A stretch of DNA of 64,000 nt from Qipengyuania intermedia (GTDB lineage: Bacteria; Pseudomonadota; Alphaproteobacteria; Sphingomonadales; Sphingomonadaceae), in assembly GCF_019711615.1 (NCBI RefSeq), contig NZ_JAIGNS010000002.1:1-64000 (forward strand). Reading direction: 5' to 3'. The notes below the pieces were generated by a model. The model did no database searches. It was given only the letters and a program-made list of their open reading frames with translations, and was not told the DNA's origin. Shown piece by piece: positions 58,651 to 63,616 of this stretch (position 1 is the first letter of the stretch; each line of letters opens with the position of its first letter). A program made the position numbers and the translations under genes.

Positions 58651-59051
58651 TGCAGGGCAAGCGCCGCCTTGCGGACAGTTTCCTGCACCTCGGGCTGGGG
58701 GCGACCGCCGTTCCCCAGCCTCCCTTCGAAGGCGTGATGGAATGGTACGAAGGATACGGGAAGCGTCACGGCAGTGACGGGCGCGAAGGAAGGCTGGTCA
58801 GCCAGCACAGCTTCTCCGAAGACTGGGGCAGCTGGGAAATGCACCCGCATGGCGAGGAAGTTGTCATTTGCACGGCAGGAAGCATGGTGCTGACGCAGGA
58901 ATTTCCCGATAGGCGCCGCGAAAGCGTCACTCTGGAAGCGGGGGAGTATGCGATCAATCCGGCGGGCGTGTGGCATATCGCCGACGTGGAATCCCACGCG
59001 ACCGCAATCTTCATCACTGCCGGCGAGGGCACGCAGCATCGTCCCCGGTGA
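58650..59051 (+). CDS. Cupin domain protein
   Basis: A 133-aa protein with the two cupin motifs, WEMHPHGEEVVICTAGSMVL and GEYAINPAGVWHIADVESHA, that hold a metal in a small beta barrel. It probably binds a small molecule or metal; the substrate is unknown. It starts at ATG 58650 inside the VOC stop. The region after it, to 59231, is the leader of the EF-hand gene. Confidence 0.82.
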   Translation: MQGKRRLADSFLHLGLGATAVPQPPFEGVMEWYEGYGKRHGSDGREGRLVSQHSFSEDWGSWEMHPHGEEVVICTAGSMVLTQEFPDRRRESVTLEAGEYAINPAGVWHIADVESHATAIFITAGEGTQHRPR

Positions 59052-59143
59052 ATTGCTGACACCCGGGTGAACGGCCTGACCGGCGCGTTACATTCCGATA
59101 CAATTCTCCTGCGATCCGGCACATTGCTGCGACAAGACGGCCC

Positions 59144-59149
59144 TATAAC
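59144..59149 (+). promoter_or_regulatory. Candidate -10 box of the EF-hand gene
   Basis: TATAAC lies so that transcription would begin near 59156-59158, the first base of the leader hairpin. The matching -35 is weak (ATTGCT at 59123-59128 with 15-base spacing, or ACATTG with 17). Confidence 0.4.
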
Positions 59150-59157
59150 GGTGACAC

Positions 59158-59228
59158 GAACTGCGGCGCTGTCCCCTCAATCCCTCCCCCCAACCCAGGC
59201 GCGCCGCAGTTCTCCAAATTCAGGAGAA
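59158..59228 (+). promoter_or_regulatory. Structured 5' leader with two competing hairpins upstream of the EF-hand gene
   Basis: GAACTGCGGCGC (59158-59169) and GCGCCGCAGTTC (59201-59212) are perfect 12-base arms around a C-rich 31-base loop. TTCTCC (59210-59215) can instead pair with GGAGAA (59223-59228), the ribosome binding site of the gene, around AAATTCA. The two stems share bases 59210-59212, so they compete. This has the form of a translational switch; the signal is unknown. Confidence 0.5.
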
Positions 59229-59231
59229 CAC

Positions 59232-59912
59232 ATGATGAAGAAGATCACCTTGACCTTGTCCGCAGCAGCGCTCGCGCTGACCGGGACTGCCGCGATCGCG
59301 CACCAGCACATGGGCAAGACGAACCCCGATGCGGACGGCAACGGCATCGTGACTAGCGCCGAACACACCGCCCATGCGAACGAGATGTTTGCGCGGATGG
59401 ACGCCAATGGCGACGGTGTGATCAACGCCGAAGACCGTGCCGAGAGGCGCGAGGCCATGTTTGCCAAGGCCGACGCCAATGGCGATGGCGAGTTGTCGCA
59501 GGCCGAAATGAAGGCGATGCACGATGCGCGCAAGGAGCAGCGCGAAGCACGCCGCGGCGAACGAGGCGAACCTCGTGCAGCGCGGATGGAACAACGTTTC
59601 GCCCAGCTCGACACCGACAATTCGGGCGGCCTCTCGCAGGCCGAACTCCAGGCCATGAAGGAAATGCGCGGTGAACGCGGCGGCGAAGCTCGCAAGGCCC
59701 GTCGCGGCGGCAAGCGTGGCGGCCCCATGGCCATGCTGCAGCGCGCCGACACCGATGGCGACAAGTCGATCTCCCGCGCTGAATTCCAGGCGGCGGTCGA
59801 TGCGCGCTTCGCCCGGGCCGATGCCGACGGCAATGGCGAAATCTCGGCTGCGGAACGCGAAGCGATGAAGCAGGCACGGCAGGAACGGCGCGCAGAGCGT
59901 CGCAGCCAGTAA
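59232..59912 (+). CDS. Exported multi-EF-hand calcium-binding protein
   Basis: A 226-aa protein with a signal peptide (MMKKITLTLSAAALALTGTA, cut near AIAHQ) and six EF-hand loops: 33-44 (DADGNGIVTSAE), 57-68, 81-92, 127-138, 173-184 and 197-208 (DADGNGEISAAE). Arg/Lys/Gly-rich linkers lie between loops three and five. It should bind calcium in the periplasm; the partner is unknown. GGAGAA precedes ATG 59232 and can be hidden in a hairpin. It lies just before an OmpR-type two-component pair, and may report calcium or cation state to it (inference). Confidence 0.88.
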   Translation: MMKKITLTLSAAALALTGTAAIAHQHMGKTNPDADGNGIVTSAEHTAHANEMFARMDANGDGVINAEDRAERREAMFAKADANGDGELSQAEMKAMHDARKEQREARRGERGEPRAARMEQRFAQLDTDNSGGLSQAELQAMKEMRGERGGEARKARRGGKRGGPMAMLQRADTDGDKSISRAEFQAAVDARFARADADGNGEISAAEREAMKQARQERRAERRSQ

Positions 59913-59958
59913 CCGGCTTTCTGTTTCGTTCACCGCAAAGCGAGTGCATAGGTCCCGC

Positions 59959-60693
59959 ATGAACGATGCTGCGCCCATCACCCTGCTGCTGGTCGACGAC
60001 GAAGCCAGCCTGCGCGAACCCCTGGCGGAATATCTCTCCGGCCAGGGGTTCGTCGTGCTGGAGGCCGAAAGTGCAGCGCGGGCGCGCTCGCGGCTGGAGA
60101 GCGATCGGCCCGACCTTGTCCTGCTCGACATCATGATGCCGGGAGAAGACGGCCTGTCGCTCTGCCGGCACCTCGTCGAAAGTCGCCAGCTTCCCGTCAT
60201 TCTGCTGACCGCCAAGGGCGAGGCGATGGACCGAATTATCGGCCTTGAAATCGGGGCGGACGACTACGTCACCAAGCCCTTCGAACCGCGCGAACTGGTG
60301 GCGCGGATACGCTCCGTCCTTCGCCGGGCAGAGCGCACTGGCGCAGAGCCTGCAGACGATCTCGCTTATGTCTTCGACGGCTGGACACTCGACCCGCTCA
60401 AGCGCCGGCTGACCGATCCCGAGGGCACCCTGGTGCCGATCTCGACCGCGGAATTCCGGATGCTGCGTGCATTCTGCGACCACCCGCGCCAGGTGCTCGA
60501 CCGGGACCGGCTGCTGGACATGGTCCAGGGGCGCGAGGCGCAATTGTTCGACCGCGCGGTGGACAACCAGGTCAGCCGCCTGCGCCGCAAGATCGAGGCC
60601 GACAGCCGCAACCCGCGTTTCATACAGACGGTGAGGGGCGGCGGCTACCGGTTCGGCGCGGATGTCACGCGCAAGGCGCCGGACAAAGCCTGA
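59959..60693 (+). CDS. OmpR/PhoB family response regulator
   Basis: A 244-aa regulator: a receiver domain with D13/D14 (LVDDEAS), the phospho-acceptor D57 in LVLLDIMMPGEDG and K in TKPFEPRELVAR, then a winged-helix DNA-binding domain (FDRAVDNQVSRLRRKIEADS, then NPRFIQTVRGGGYRFG). Its partner is the kinase that follows; the stop overlaps the kinase start (TGATG). I chose ATG 59959 over an upstream GTG. Confidence 0.92.
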   Translation: MNDAAPITLLLVDDEASLREPLAEYLSGQGFVVLEAESAARARSRLESDRPDLVLLDIMMPGEDGLSLCRHLVESRQLPVILLTAKGEAMDRIIGLEIGADDYVTKPFEPRELVARIRSVLRRAERTGAEPADDLAYVFDGWTLDPLKRRLTDPEGTLVPISTAEFRMLRAFCDHPRQVLDRDRLLDMVQGREAQLFDRAVDNQVSRLRRKIEADSRNPRFIQTVRGGGYRFGADVTRKAPDKA

Positions 60694-62093
60694 TGCGGTT
60701 TCTTCCCAGGAGCCTGCTGGGCCAGACATTGCTGGCGGTCGCCGGCGCGCTCCTGCTGGCGCAACTGGTGACGACCGGACTTCTCTATCGCATCGCCGAA
60801 GAGCGGCGCGAAGAAGCGCTGATCAGCGCCGCCCAGCTTTCCTTGTGGGGTGCGCCGGTGTTTCGCCAGGCTCGCGGCGAAGCGGTGCTCGAAGGGGATC
60901 GCCGACGTTTCCGGGCAGACCGGCGCGAACTGGGTGGCCGCTGGATGCGGGGCGAGGTGACAGAAGCCTTTCCCCTCTTGCCGGGCGAGACTTCGGACGA
61001 GGCTCTGGCGACGGCCATTGCAGCGCGCCTGACGGGTTTCGTTCGCGAACCGCATGCCGTGCTTGCGACCATTCGCGCCACCGACGACGATCCAGTGGTG
61101 ATGCAGCGGGTTCGCGACTGGACCCCGGCATCGCGCAAAATGGTCCGAGGTTACCGGAAGGTATTCGTCGCTGCAGTCCAGTGGGAAGAAGGCGGCGCAT
61201 GGCACGTCGCCCGAGTACCGTTTCCGCGCGACGACCGGAGGGTTTTCCTCGTTACTGCGGCCCAAACGCTGGTGATCTTCATCCTGGTCATGACGGTCCT
61301 GTTCGTCCTGCTGCGCCGGATCACCCGGCCCTTGGCGAGGCTGACGCGCCAGACCGAACGGTTTTCGTCCAATCCGGGCAGCATTACCCCGATTGAGCCG
61401 AGCGGGCCCGACGATATTCGCAGCCTGATCGCGGCGCATAATGCGATGGAAGCGCGCATCGCTGCCATGCTGGATGAAAAGGACGTCATGCTGGGCGCCA
61501 TCGGCCATGACCTGAAGACGCCGCTGGCCGCGCTGAGGGTTCGGATCGAGGCGATCCGCGACGACGGCCTGCGGGCGAAGATGGCGGATTCGATCGAAGA
61601 GATAACGCAAACGCTCGACGAGATCCTCCTGTTGGCACGCATCGGCCGCGCCGATCGCCCTGCGGAGCGTACCGATCTCTATGCCTTGCTGGTGTCGGTG
61701 GTCGAGGAATTCGAGGATATGAACCAGCCGGTCGCGCTGCTCGAAGGACAGCGGGTGCCCGCGCCTGTGCACCTCACCTGGCTGAAACGGGGCGTGCGCA
61801 ACCTCATCTCCAACGCCCTGCGCTATGGCGGGACGGCAGAGATCGCACTGTTGCGCGAAGGCAATGAAGCGGTGATCCGCGTCGTGGATGACGGACCCGG
61901 CATTCCCGAGGAGCGCATCGCGGAAATGCTCGAACCTTTCACTCGCGGCGAGGCAAGCCGCAATCGCGCCACAGGCGGCGCCGGTCTCGGCCTGACCATC
62001 ACGCGCGCCGTTGCAGAGCAGCATGGCGGTTCGCTGGTGCTGGAAAACCGGCAGCAGGGCGGCCTGCGTGCCGAGTTGCGTCTGCCGCTCTAG
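60693..62093 (+). CDS. Membrane sensor histidine kinase, OmpR-type partner
   Basis: A 466-aa kinase: a membrane helix at ~8-30, a ~150-residue periplasmic part rich in Arg/Asp, a second helix near 190-210, HAMP ([17 protein letters not shown]), HisKA with H272 in [14 protein letters not shown], and HATPase_c ([34 protein letters not shown]). The stimulus cannot be read; the neighbouring EF-hand protein hints at a cation-related cue. Its stop overlaps the convergent HerA-like stop by 4 bases. Confidence 0.92.
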
Positions 62094-63616
62094 CGCATCA
62101 GCCCGCCGACGATATTGCGCACGAAGGCATTGAGGCCTGTGCGTACCGGATCGGCGCGCGACTTCTTGCCGAGGACTGCGGCAACGGCCACCGAGGAGAG
62201 CGAGCCTGCCGCAGCGGTCGCCGCAGCCTTGCCCGCCTTGGTCCACATCGACGGCGTCTTGCGTTCGCGCTTGCGCACCTCCTCCTCGCCCCTTTCCTCG
62301 ACCTCCTTGGCGGTTTCGGCCGCGTCGAGTGTCTTTGCCGCGAGCACTTCTTCCGCGCTCTCGCGATCGACGGCTTCGTCGTATTTCCCGTCCAGCTCGC
62401 TGACCGAGTTCACGATCTTGCGCTCTTTTTCTGTCACCGGGCCGAGGCGCGAGTGGGGCGGCTTGATCAGCGTGCGCTGCACGACCGATGGTGCGCCGTC
62501 CTCGTCCAGCGTGGAAACCAGCGCCTCGCCTACCTTGAGTTCAGTGATCGCTTGCTCGACGTCGAGGTCCGGATTGATCCGGAATGTCTCTGCGGCGGCC
62601 TTGATCGCGCGCTGGTCGCGCGGGGTGAAGGCGCGCAGTGCATGCTGGACGCGGTTGCCCAGCTGGCCGGCGATCTTTTCCGGGATGTCGATAGGGTTCT
62701 GCGTCACGAAATAGACGCCCACGCCCTTCGACCGGATGAGACGCACGACCTGCTCAACCTTTTCTTCCAGTGCTTCGGGCGCATCGTCGAAGAGCAGGTG
62801 TGCCTCGTCGAAGAAGAACACCAGCTTCGGCTTGTCCGGATCGCCGACCTCGGGAAGCGTTTCGAACAGTTCGGCCAGCAGCCAGAGCAGGAAGGTTGCG
62901 TAGAGCTTCGGGCTGCGCATCAGCTTGTCGGCGGCCAGCACGTTGATCACACCCCGGCCTTTTTCATCAGTAGCGAGGAAGTCGTCGATCTCCAGCGCGG
63001 GCTCGCCGAAGAATTCGTCCGCGCCTTGGCTTTCAAAACTCAGCAGCTGGCGCTGGATCGCGCCGACGCTGGCCTTGGAAACATTGCCGTATTTGCCGGA
63101 CAGGTCTTTGGCGTTGTCATAGGCGAAAGTCAGCATTGCCTGCAGGTCGCCAAGGTCGAGCAGCAGAAGGTTGTTCTCGTCGGCATAGCGGAAGACGATA
63201 TTGAGCACGCCTTCCTGCGTTTCGTTGAGGTCCAGCAGGCGCGCCAGCAGCAGTGGGCCCATTTCCGAAATCGTCGTGCGGATGGGGAAGCCCTTTTCGC
63301 CATAGAGATCCCAGAACACCGCCGCATTATCGGCATAGGCATAGTCGTCCATGCCCAGGTCCTTCGCGCGGCCTTCCAGCTTGTCGGCATGCTTGAACTG
63401 GGGGGAGCCGGCCATGGAAATGCCTGAAAGGTCACCCTTCACATCGGCCACGAATACAGGGACGCCGCGTGCGGAGAAGCTTTCTGCAAGGCCCTGGAGA
63501 GTGACCGTCTTACCGGTCCCGGTGGCACCGGCGATCAATCCATGGCGATTGGCCTGCGCAAGCCTGAGATACTGCTTTTCTCCATTGCCGCCCAATCCAA
63601 GGAAAATATCGTTCAT
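62090..63616 (-). CDS. HerA-like ATPase (DUF853 family)
   Basis: A 508-aa P-loop ATPase with Walker A GATGTGKT (30-37), Walker [16 protein letters not shown], and the arginine-finger region [20 protein letters not shown] of the HerA/FtsK superclass. It is a stand-alone version without NurA, and the C-terminal ~80 residues are Lys/Glu-rich then Ala-rich and may bind DNA or membrane. The role is likely DNA-associated, but unproven. It is divergent from pabB. Confidence 0.85.

Follow-up and report, generated by a model that had tools for sequence, protein, structure and literature searches.

The 5′ leader of a three-gene operon in Qipengyuania intermedia, which codes for an exported EF-hand protein, an OmpR-type response regulator and a sensor histidine kinase, is very likely a genuine and previously undescribed control element, as comparison with related genomes suggests. 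Its main part is a long hairpin with a C-rich loop (P1), which on the same comparative grounds is a real RNA hairpin conserved at one specific operon, because the sequence of the stem changes while its pairing stays; the second part is a short stem (P2) over the Shine-Dalgarno (SD) sequence of the EF-hand gene. The locus was analysed within a stretch of 64,000 nucleotides (nt), hereafter the window, comprising positions 1 to 64,000 (forward strand) of contig NZ_JAIGNS010000002.1 from assembly GCF_019711615.1. A preliminary description of this DNA had pointed out the two stems with their coordinates, the promoter-like hexamer TATAAC and the C-rich loop, and all of these were found on the letters as described.

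P1 is a perfect 12-bp inverted repeat in which GAACTGCGGCGC pairs with GCGCCGCAGTTC, and its loop holds the anti-SD-like core CCCTCCCCCC (Table 1). A count of perfect hairpins with 12 or more pairs and 4-50 nt in the loop gives two for the whole window versus 1, 1, 0, 0 and 0 for five block-shuffled copies; the second one in the window is located at 60015-60052 within the regulator gene. Folding z-scores of the leader are −3.44 for 59156-59262 and −4.17 for 59156-59250. Scanning of the whole window with Rfam 15 gave a tRNA away from the leader as the sole match at or above gathering score, while the region 59050-59330 at E<=10 yielded five matches, all far under gathering scores (best E 1.3). 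Within the accessible parts of the open-access literature on anti-SD RNAs, EF-hand two-component operons, structured RNAs of Sphingomonadaceae and start sites or small RNAs (sRNAs) of sphingomonads, this leader element was not found described.

Conservation and covariation in relatives had been proposed as a check of the RNA element, and P1 passed it strongly both within the genus and in many other genera. In the genus, 54 of 60 genomes contain EF-hand relatives. Among the 50 same-genus loci read, 47 have the EF-hand gene between the leader in front and the regulator behind; at L046, L047 and L048 the DNA read contains EF-hand relatives but neither leader nor regulator nor kinase. The MAFFT alignment of the genus (A1) comprised 44 of the 47 leaders, those at a contig end (L013), with a short loop (L049) and with divergent sequence (L051) being left out, and L001 duplicates L002 in this set. 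P1 is the only consensus helix of A1, with 4 of its 12 pairs changed on both sides. GAG/CUC of most relatives corresponds to GAA/UUC in the window's own clade. For the 42 distinct rows, 99.2% of cells are paired versus 28-63% with the partner slid, and in 500 shuffles of this set the number of doubly changed pairs was reached 10 times and the covariation score never.

Beyond the genus, the leader model R1 at E<=0.1 matched 126 of 397 family genomes and 50 of 96 genera, the weak end of this list holding false positives. Opened matches from other genera precede an EF-hand gene and a regulator (71-83% identical) in 38 cases out of 40, and wherever the DNA extends far enough (18 of these loci, L082-L101 minus L090 and L100) the kinase comes next. 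L090 and L100 were rejected as false leader matches (2/40) produced by unrelated repeats; in L100, from a same-family genome, G-rich and C-rich blocks complementary to each other make up an intergenic repeat at approximately 960-1090. Twenty further loci, partly picked as second or weak matches, gave 10 with the operon and 10 without it, and in each of 8 genomes where two matches were opened (L016, L024 and L073 included) one alone stands at the operon. The operon with leader was opened in 23 genera of the GTDB family besides Qipengyuania, and L124 and L125 combine the same operon with unusually long model matches of 133 and 147 nt. At the level of the order (E<=0.01), 68 of 296 genomes match, 67 belonging to the same family, and the outlier (G452) is not at such an operon. 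Search based on the regulator instead of the RNA revealed the leader at 59 of 80 loci (46 of the 59 passed automatic parsing), 2 being without upstream DNA and 19 without model match, of which several (e.g., L152, L154, L160 and L177) show a diverged C-rich-loop hairpin by eye, and L195 and L203 do not. Loci found in this way span Qipengyuania, Erythrobacter, Altererythrobacter, Pelagerythrobacter, Croceibacterium, Tsuneonella and Novosphingobium, among others.

The resulting collection of 129 leaders, in which some genomes are present twice, was used for plain counts, and tests were performed on 74 representatives (or on 14 from the genus and 62 others). Alignment A2 still contained three non-members (L090, L100 and the antisense of L063); alignment A3, with 66 of 85 leaders after removal of near-duplicates, has 98.1% of cells paired versus 89.6% in shuffled and 25-54% in slid controls, all with a lean towards the structure as it was fitted to the model. 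In A3, 9 of 12 P1 pairs are changed on both sides and one position is G-U in 32 of 66 leaders. True P1 arms of the 74 representatives fold with −21.0 versus −13.3 kcal/mol for swapped arms. Since inverted repeats near promoters can be operators, P1 might be regarded as a DNA palindrome bound by protein, but the distance between the arms varies along with a loop of 22-117 nt (median 31), the arms co-change across genera and the frequent G-U pair fits RNA rather than DNA, which makes this idea scarcely credible.

In the loop, CUCCCC or CCUCCC is present in 67 of 74 representatives. A conserved C-rich loop on variable stems follows the same logic as in the alphaproteobacterial sRNA alpha-r14, and the hairpin, released or within the mRNA, might act in trans by binding the ribosome-binding sites of other mRNAs. 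Yet alpha-r14 and cuckoo sRNAs are defined, in the accessible parts of the sources, by two to four hairpins that carry CCUCCUCCC in their loops (PMC10746234, PMC3927594), while the leader has one hairpin, exact CCUCCUCCC is present in 3 of 129 loops and the scan of 59040-59960 gave no terminator-like site after P1; action in trans is thus considered improbable. A pseudoknot between loop and SD was rejected, covariation being absent (p=0.74). The suggestion of the preliminary description that the RNA itself senses a cation gained no support, P1 being a plain hairpin with no Rfam riboswitch matches. More generally, a riboswitch that binds a metal ion or another small molecule would agree with the metal-binding type of protein encoded by the first gene, but with neither junction nor pseudoknot nor conserved core beyond the C-run such an assignment is very unlikely.

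A TA-hexamer resembling a −10 box ends 8 or 9 nt ahead of P1 in 113 of 129 leaders, and this rigid spacing suggests that the mRNA 5′ end is probably the foot of P1. Such a terminal position also speaks for another reading, in which P1 is a stability hairpin against 5′-end-dependent decay, as the 5′ hairpin of the E. coli ompA leader protects its mRNA, and P2 is a separate lineage-specific translation brake. The same-genus leader L049 (3733-3797, minus strand) adds to it, as there the P1 stem is kept and the C-rich loop is lost, either by natural deletion or by assembly error. We nevertheless hold this reading to be unlikely, for it leaves the loop motif and the restriction to one operon unexplained.

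P2 is a perfect 6-bp inverted repeat with one extra pair possible (G59209-C59229), and its placement over the ribosome-binding site with three bases common to P1 (59210-59212) stands as originally described. Of the 74 representatives, 61 have three or all four SD bases paired in a local hairpin, and in 53 bases of P1 contribute to this pairing. True P2 partners pair better than swapped ones for all 74 representatives (p=0.0004; p=0.0007 in a repeat test) and within the genus (p=0.0024 for n=14, p=0.0035 for n=8 and p=0.13 for n=4), so that the two sides of P2 coevolve in Qipengyuania. The SD is covered better than with shuffled spacers in 12 of 14 genus representatives (p=0.02), and in 68 of 83 leaders without dereplication. 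The possibility of an RNA thermometer built on P2 appeals to a short hairpin over the SD, but between 15 and 50 °C the computed SD accessibility is nearly flat, rising from 0.30 to 0.33 in the 14 genus representatives and from 0.12 to 0.17 in the window; computed folding thus gives no opening of the SD by physiological heat, and we attach almost no weight to this variant.

The two stems share about 2-4 bases, in the window at most 59209-59212, and the GAA of the mRNA 5′ end and the GAA of the SD region are rivals for the same UUC. Strict mutual exclusion of the stems, as initially proposed, was not borne out by computed folding: the minimum-energy structure of 59156-59250 contains a shortened P1 together with full P2, and three mixed states, P1(12)+P2(3), P1(9)+P2(6) and P1(8)+P2(7), have −24.8, −24.0 and −24.9 kcal/mol, respectively. 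Being within 1 kcal/mol, they are steps of branch migration and not two exclusive folds. Blocking of the P1 foot has a median cost of 5.8 kcal/mol in the 14 genus representatives (2 of them within 3 kcal/mol), and 3.8 instead of 2.7 of the 4 SD bases are then paired; in the 62 others the cost is 6.2 kcal/mol and 2.9 instead of 2.3 bases pair. When the P1 5′ arm is removed, the SD becomes less accessible by computation in 13 of 14 representatives from the genus and 54 of 62 from elsewhere. An intact P1 thus tends to leave the ribosome site more accessible, and the direction of its effect agrees with that proposed earlier.

The explanation that we favour, at somewhat short of an even chance, is that the leader tunes translation of a probably self-regulated and possibly Ca2+-linked operon, with a trans-acting factor engaged at the loop. 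Transcription would start at the foot of the 5′-terminal P1, which would display its C-rich anti-SD-like loop, and the P1 foot and the ribosome-binding site would contend for a handful of shared bases. A complete P1 would leave the ribosome site only partly covered, and opening of the P1 foot would let P2 lengthen and cover it. In this way the leader would govern how strongly the first gene, for the probably Ca2+-binding EF-hand protein, is translated, and polarity might extend this control to the regulator and kinase genes, the state being decided by a protein or RNA acting in trans and recognised through the loop. A broader proposal is that we deal with a new class of cis-regulatory RNAs, limited on present evidence to a single family of Sphingomonadales and consisting of a 5′-terminal hairpin with anti-SD loop, whose foot is set against the ribosome site; an RNA or protein acting in trans at the loop would then determine how much of the calcium-binding protein and its two-component system is made. 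It is put forward tentatively, and we consider it less likely than not.

Several observations weigh against translational tuning by the two stems. Retention of the stem without the C-rich loop in L049 is one of them. The even balance of P1 and P2 is a peculiarity of the window, P1 being favoured in most relatives, as the costs of foot blocking given above indicate, and thus the two-state equilibrium does not hold as a conserved trait. Outside the genus, true and swapped P2 partners differ with p=0.016 at n=62, p=0.13 at n=35 and p=0.41 at n=22; for the whole set stricter dereplication gives p=0.25 (70%) and p=0.15 (65%), and the P2 signal is found neither in the P1 end alone (p=0.087) nor in the spacer alone (p=0.65). 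Coverage of the SD exceeds that with shuffled spacers in 38 of 62 representatives from outside the genus (p=0.23). Covariation of P2 therefore holds within the genus and is weak or not significant beyond it, which suggests that P2 belongs to the genus and no more than in part to the family as a whole.

Table 1. Positions of the leader elements, upstream motifs and operon genes in the window
Feature	Position	Strand	Remarks
TGAAC near −90 from P1	59068..59072	+	kept in relatives' leaders
GTTACA-N4-GATACAA direct repeat	59087..59103	+	putative site for the operon's own OmpR-type regulator
GCGACA, promoter-proximal half-site-like element	59129..59134	+	in −35..−10 from P1 in 128/129 leaders
−10-like box TATAAC	59144..59149	+	8 nt separate the box from P1
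P1 5′ arm, GAACTGCGGCGC	59158..59169	+	inverted repeat and covariation in relatives
P1 loop, 31 nt, C-rich	59170..59200	+	anti-Shine-Dalgarno-like core 59182-59191 (CCCTCCCCCC)
P1 3′ arm, GCGCCGCAGTTC	59201..59212	+	inverted repeat and covariation in relatives
P2 5′ arm, TTCTCC	59210..59215	+	extendable to 59209; overlaps P1 at 59210-59212
P2 3′ arm, GGAGAA	59223..59228	+	extendable to 59229; contains Shine-Dalgarno GGAG 59223-59226
Exported protein, six EF-hand loops	59232..59912	+	start 59232 or 59235; Pfam and loop scan
OmpR-type response regulator	59959..60693	+	domain profiles
Sensor histidine kinase (HAMP, HisKA, HATPase_c)	60693..62093	+	domain profiles

Upstream of P1, two ACA-type half-sites 10-11 bp apart are found in 118 of 129 leaders, and TGAAC lies within −110..−65 in 106, of which 93 have it at −91 or −90. 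From this arrangement we infer that the operon may be controlled by its own OmpR-type regulator. The direct-repeat pattern occurs at 2 places in the genome versus 0 for the backward control; since about one chance match is estimated, the single other place (C1:140401) was not used for building a wider regulon. Scanning for sigma-70-like promoters gave one site, 59076-59104, which overlaps the repeats and could be an alternative start.

The genes follow in the order EF-hand protein, regulator and kinase on the same strand, and the six calcium loops, the OmpR-type regulator and the sensor kinase of the preliminary description are all confirmed by the count of EF-hand loops and by Pfam domains. 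EF-hand families score above their own cut-offs in the product of the first gene, the N-terminus of which reads like a signal peptide when judged by eye, and a gene with three to six EF-hand loops comes after the leader in 128 of 129 cases. Receiver and Trans_reg_C domains of the regulator beside a HAMP/HisKA/HATPase kinase place the pair among OmpR/EnvZ-type two-component systems, with exact OmpR and EnvZ equivalog profiles staying under cut-off (238.9 vs 331 and 171.8 vs 415, respectively). PDB sequence matches of the EF-hand protein are weak (calcium-binding protein, 2.7e-6; lanmodulin, 4.1e-5), and the label of XopAW-type effector was dropped at 91.1 bits against a cut-off of 120. Its predicted structure (pLDDT 77, pTM 0.60) was left unused, Foldseek matches being uninformative: the 50 listed are mostly of calmodulin type, with TM 0.11-0.16 and none at E<=0.001. 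Convergent with the kinase gene is a gene for a HerA-like helicase (HerA_C, 716 bits) at 62090-63616 on the minus strand.

Gene order supports the functional link between the EF-hand gene and the two-component system that was assumed earlier. In alphaproteobacterial families other than this one, the nearest regulators (51-59%, tblastn) are accompanied by an EF-hand gene in divergent orientation at 10 of 27 loci with 1.5 kb flank (L211, L212, L218-L221, L224, L225, L234 and L235), some of the EF-hand matches being weak and the count being a raw one, uncorrected for the background rate beside unrelated regulators. This separate arrangement supports the view that the EF-hand protein and the two-component system work together. 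The leader was absent from 28 other-family loci, bar one match at E=0.15.

Judging by the EF-hands, calcium is a plausible signal of the operon. Enzymes dependent on lanthanides are marked by the DYD motif; the only pyrroloquinoline quinone (PQQ) alcohol dehydrogenase of the genome over the cut-off of TIGR03075, the sole dehydrogenase family searched, has WDYT at the metal site instead (L238, G000:C2:113556-115172). The protein resembles lanmodulin (LanM) as a periplasmic-type EF-hand protein with 12-residue linkers: the accessible part of the source gives a spacing of 12-13 residues between EF-hands (PMC10232371), and the same spacing is found here, with a loop-to-loop distance of 24 in 303 of 513 cases, and 28 of 128 relatives are proteins of less than 200 residues with four loops. 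It differs from lanmodulin in that Pro at loop position 2 occurs in 0 of 641 loops and in that the window protein scores 65.6 bits with the NCBIfam LanM profile versus a cut-off of 135. The lanthanide reading, prompted by LanM-like spacing and the sub-threshold profile, was rejected in view of the missing Pro-2.

If the broader proposal of a new RNA class is true, a bacterial EF-hand signalling operon would be under RNA-level control, exerted by an anti-SD hairpin of the kind used in trans by other alphaproteobacteria. The link of EF-hands to bacterial gene control is largely open, and the locus offers a compact conserved unit of leader RNA, EF-hand protein, regulator and kinase in culturable genera. 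For RNA biochemistry the structured leader, present in at least 24 opened genera and without a counterpart in Rfam, is an obvious object of study, and its anti-SD loop in cis would bear on the possible origin of alphaproteobacterial anti-SD sRNAs.

Among known systems, translational attenuators and expression platforms of riboswitches include leaders in which a stem masking the SD competes with one upstream of it. The leader shares with them two stems that are rivals for bases next to the SD and differs in having 2-4 bases in common, no aptamer and a 5′-terminal first stem. ZraSR-ZraP and CpxAR-CpxP exemplify two-component systems that have a periplasmic accessory protein able to bind metal, and they likewise combine an OmpR-type pair with an exported protein of metal-binding type in one operon; here the putative accessory is an EF-hand protein and an RNA leader is present. 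Caulobacter UzcRS, responsive to U, Zn and Cu and tied to metals and envelope genes according to the accessible part of the literature, is also an OmpR-type alphaproteobacterial system, but its genes uzcR and uzcS (CCNA_02842 and CCNA_02845) and motif CATTAC-N6-TTAA (PMC8963506) set it apart from the present operon, by description and not by sequence. Closest in terms of RNA are the sRNAs alpha-r14, NfeR1 and cuckoo, described in the accessible parts of the sources as GC-rich hairpins in which the stem varies and a C-rich anti-SD loop is conserved (PMC10746234, PMC3927594): variable stems under such a loop are common to both, whereas the element described here is a single hairpin with a CUCCCC-type loop that forms the cis-located 5′ leader of an operon.

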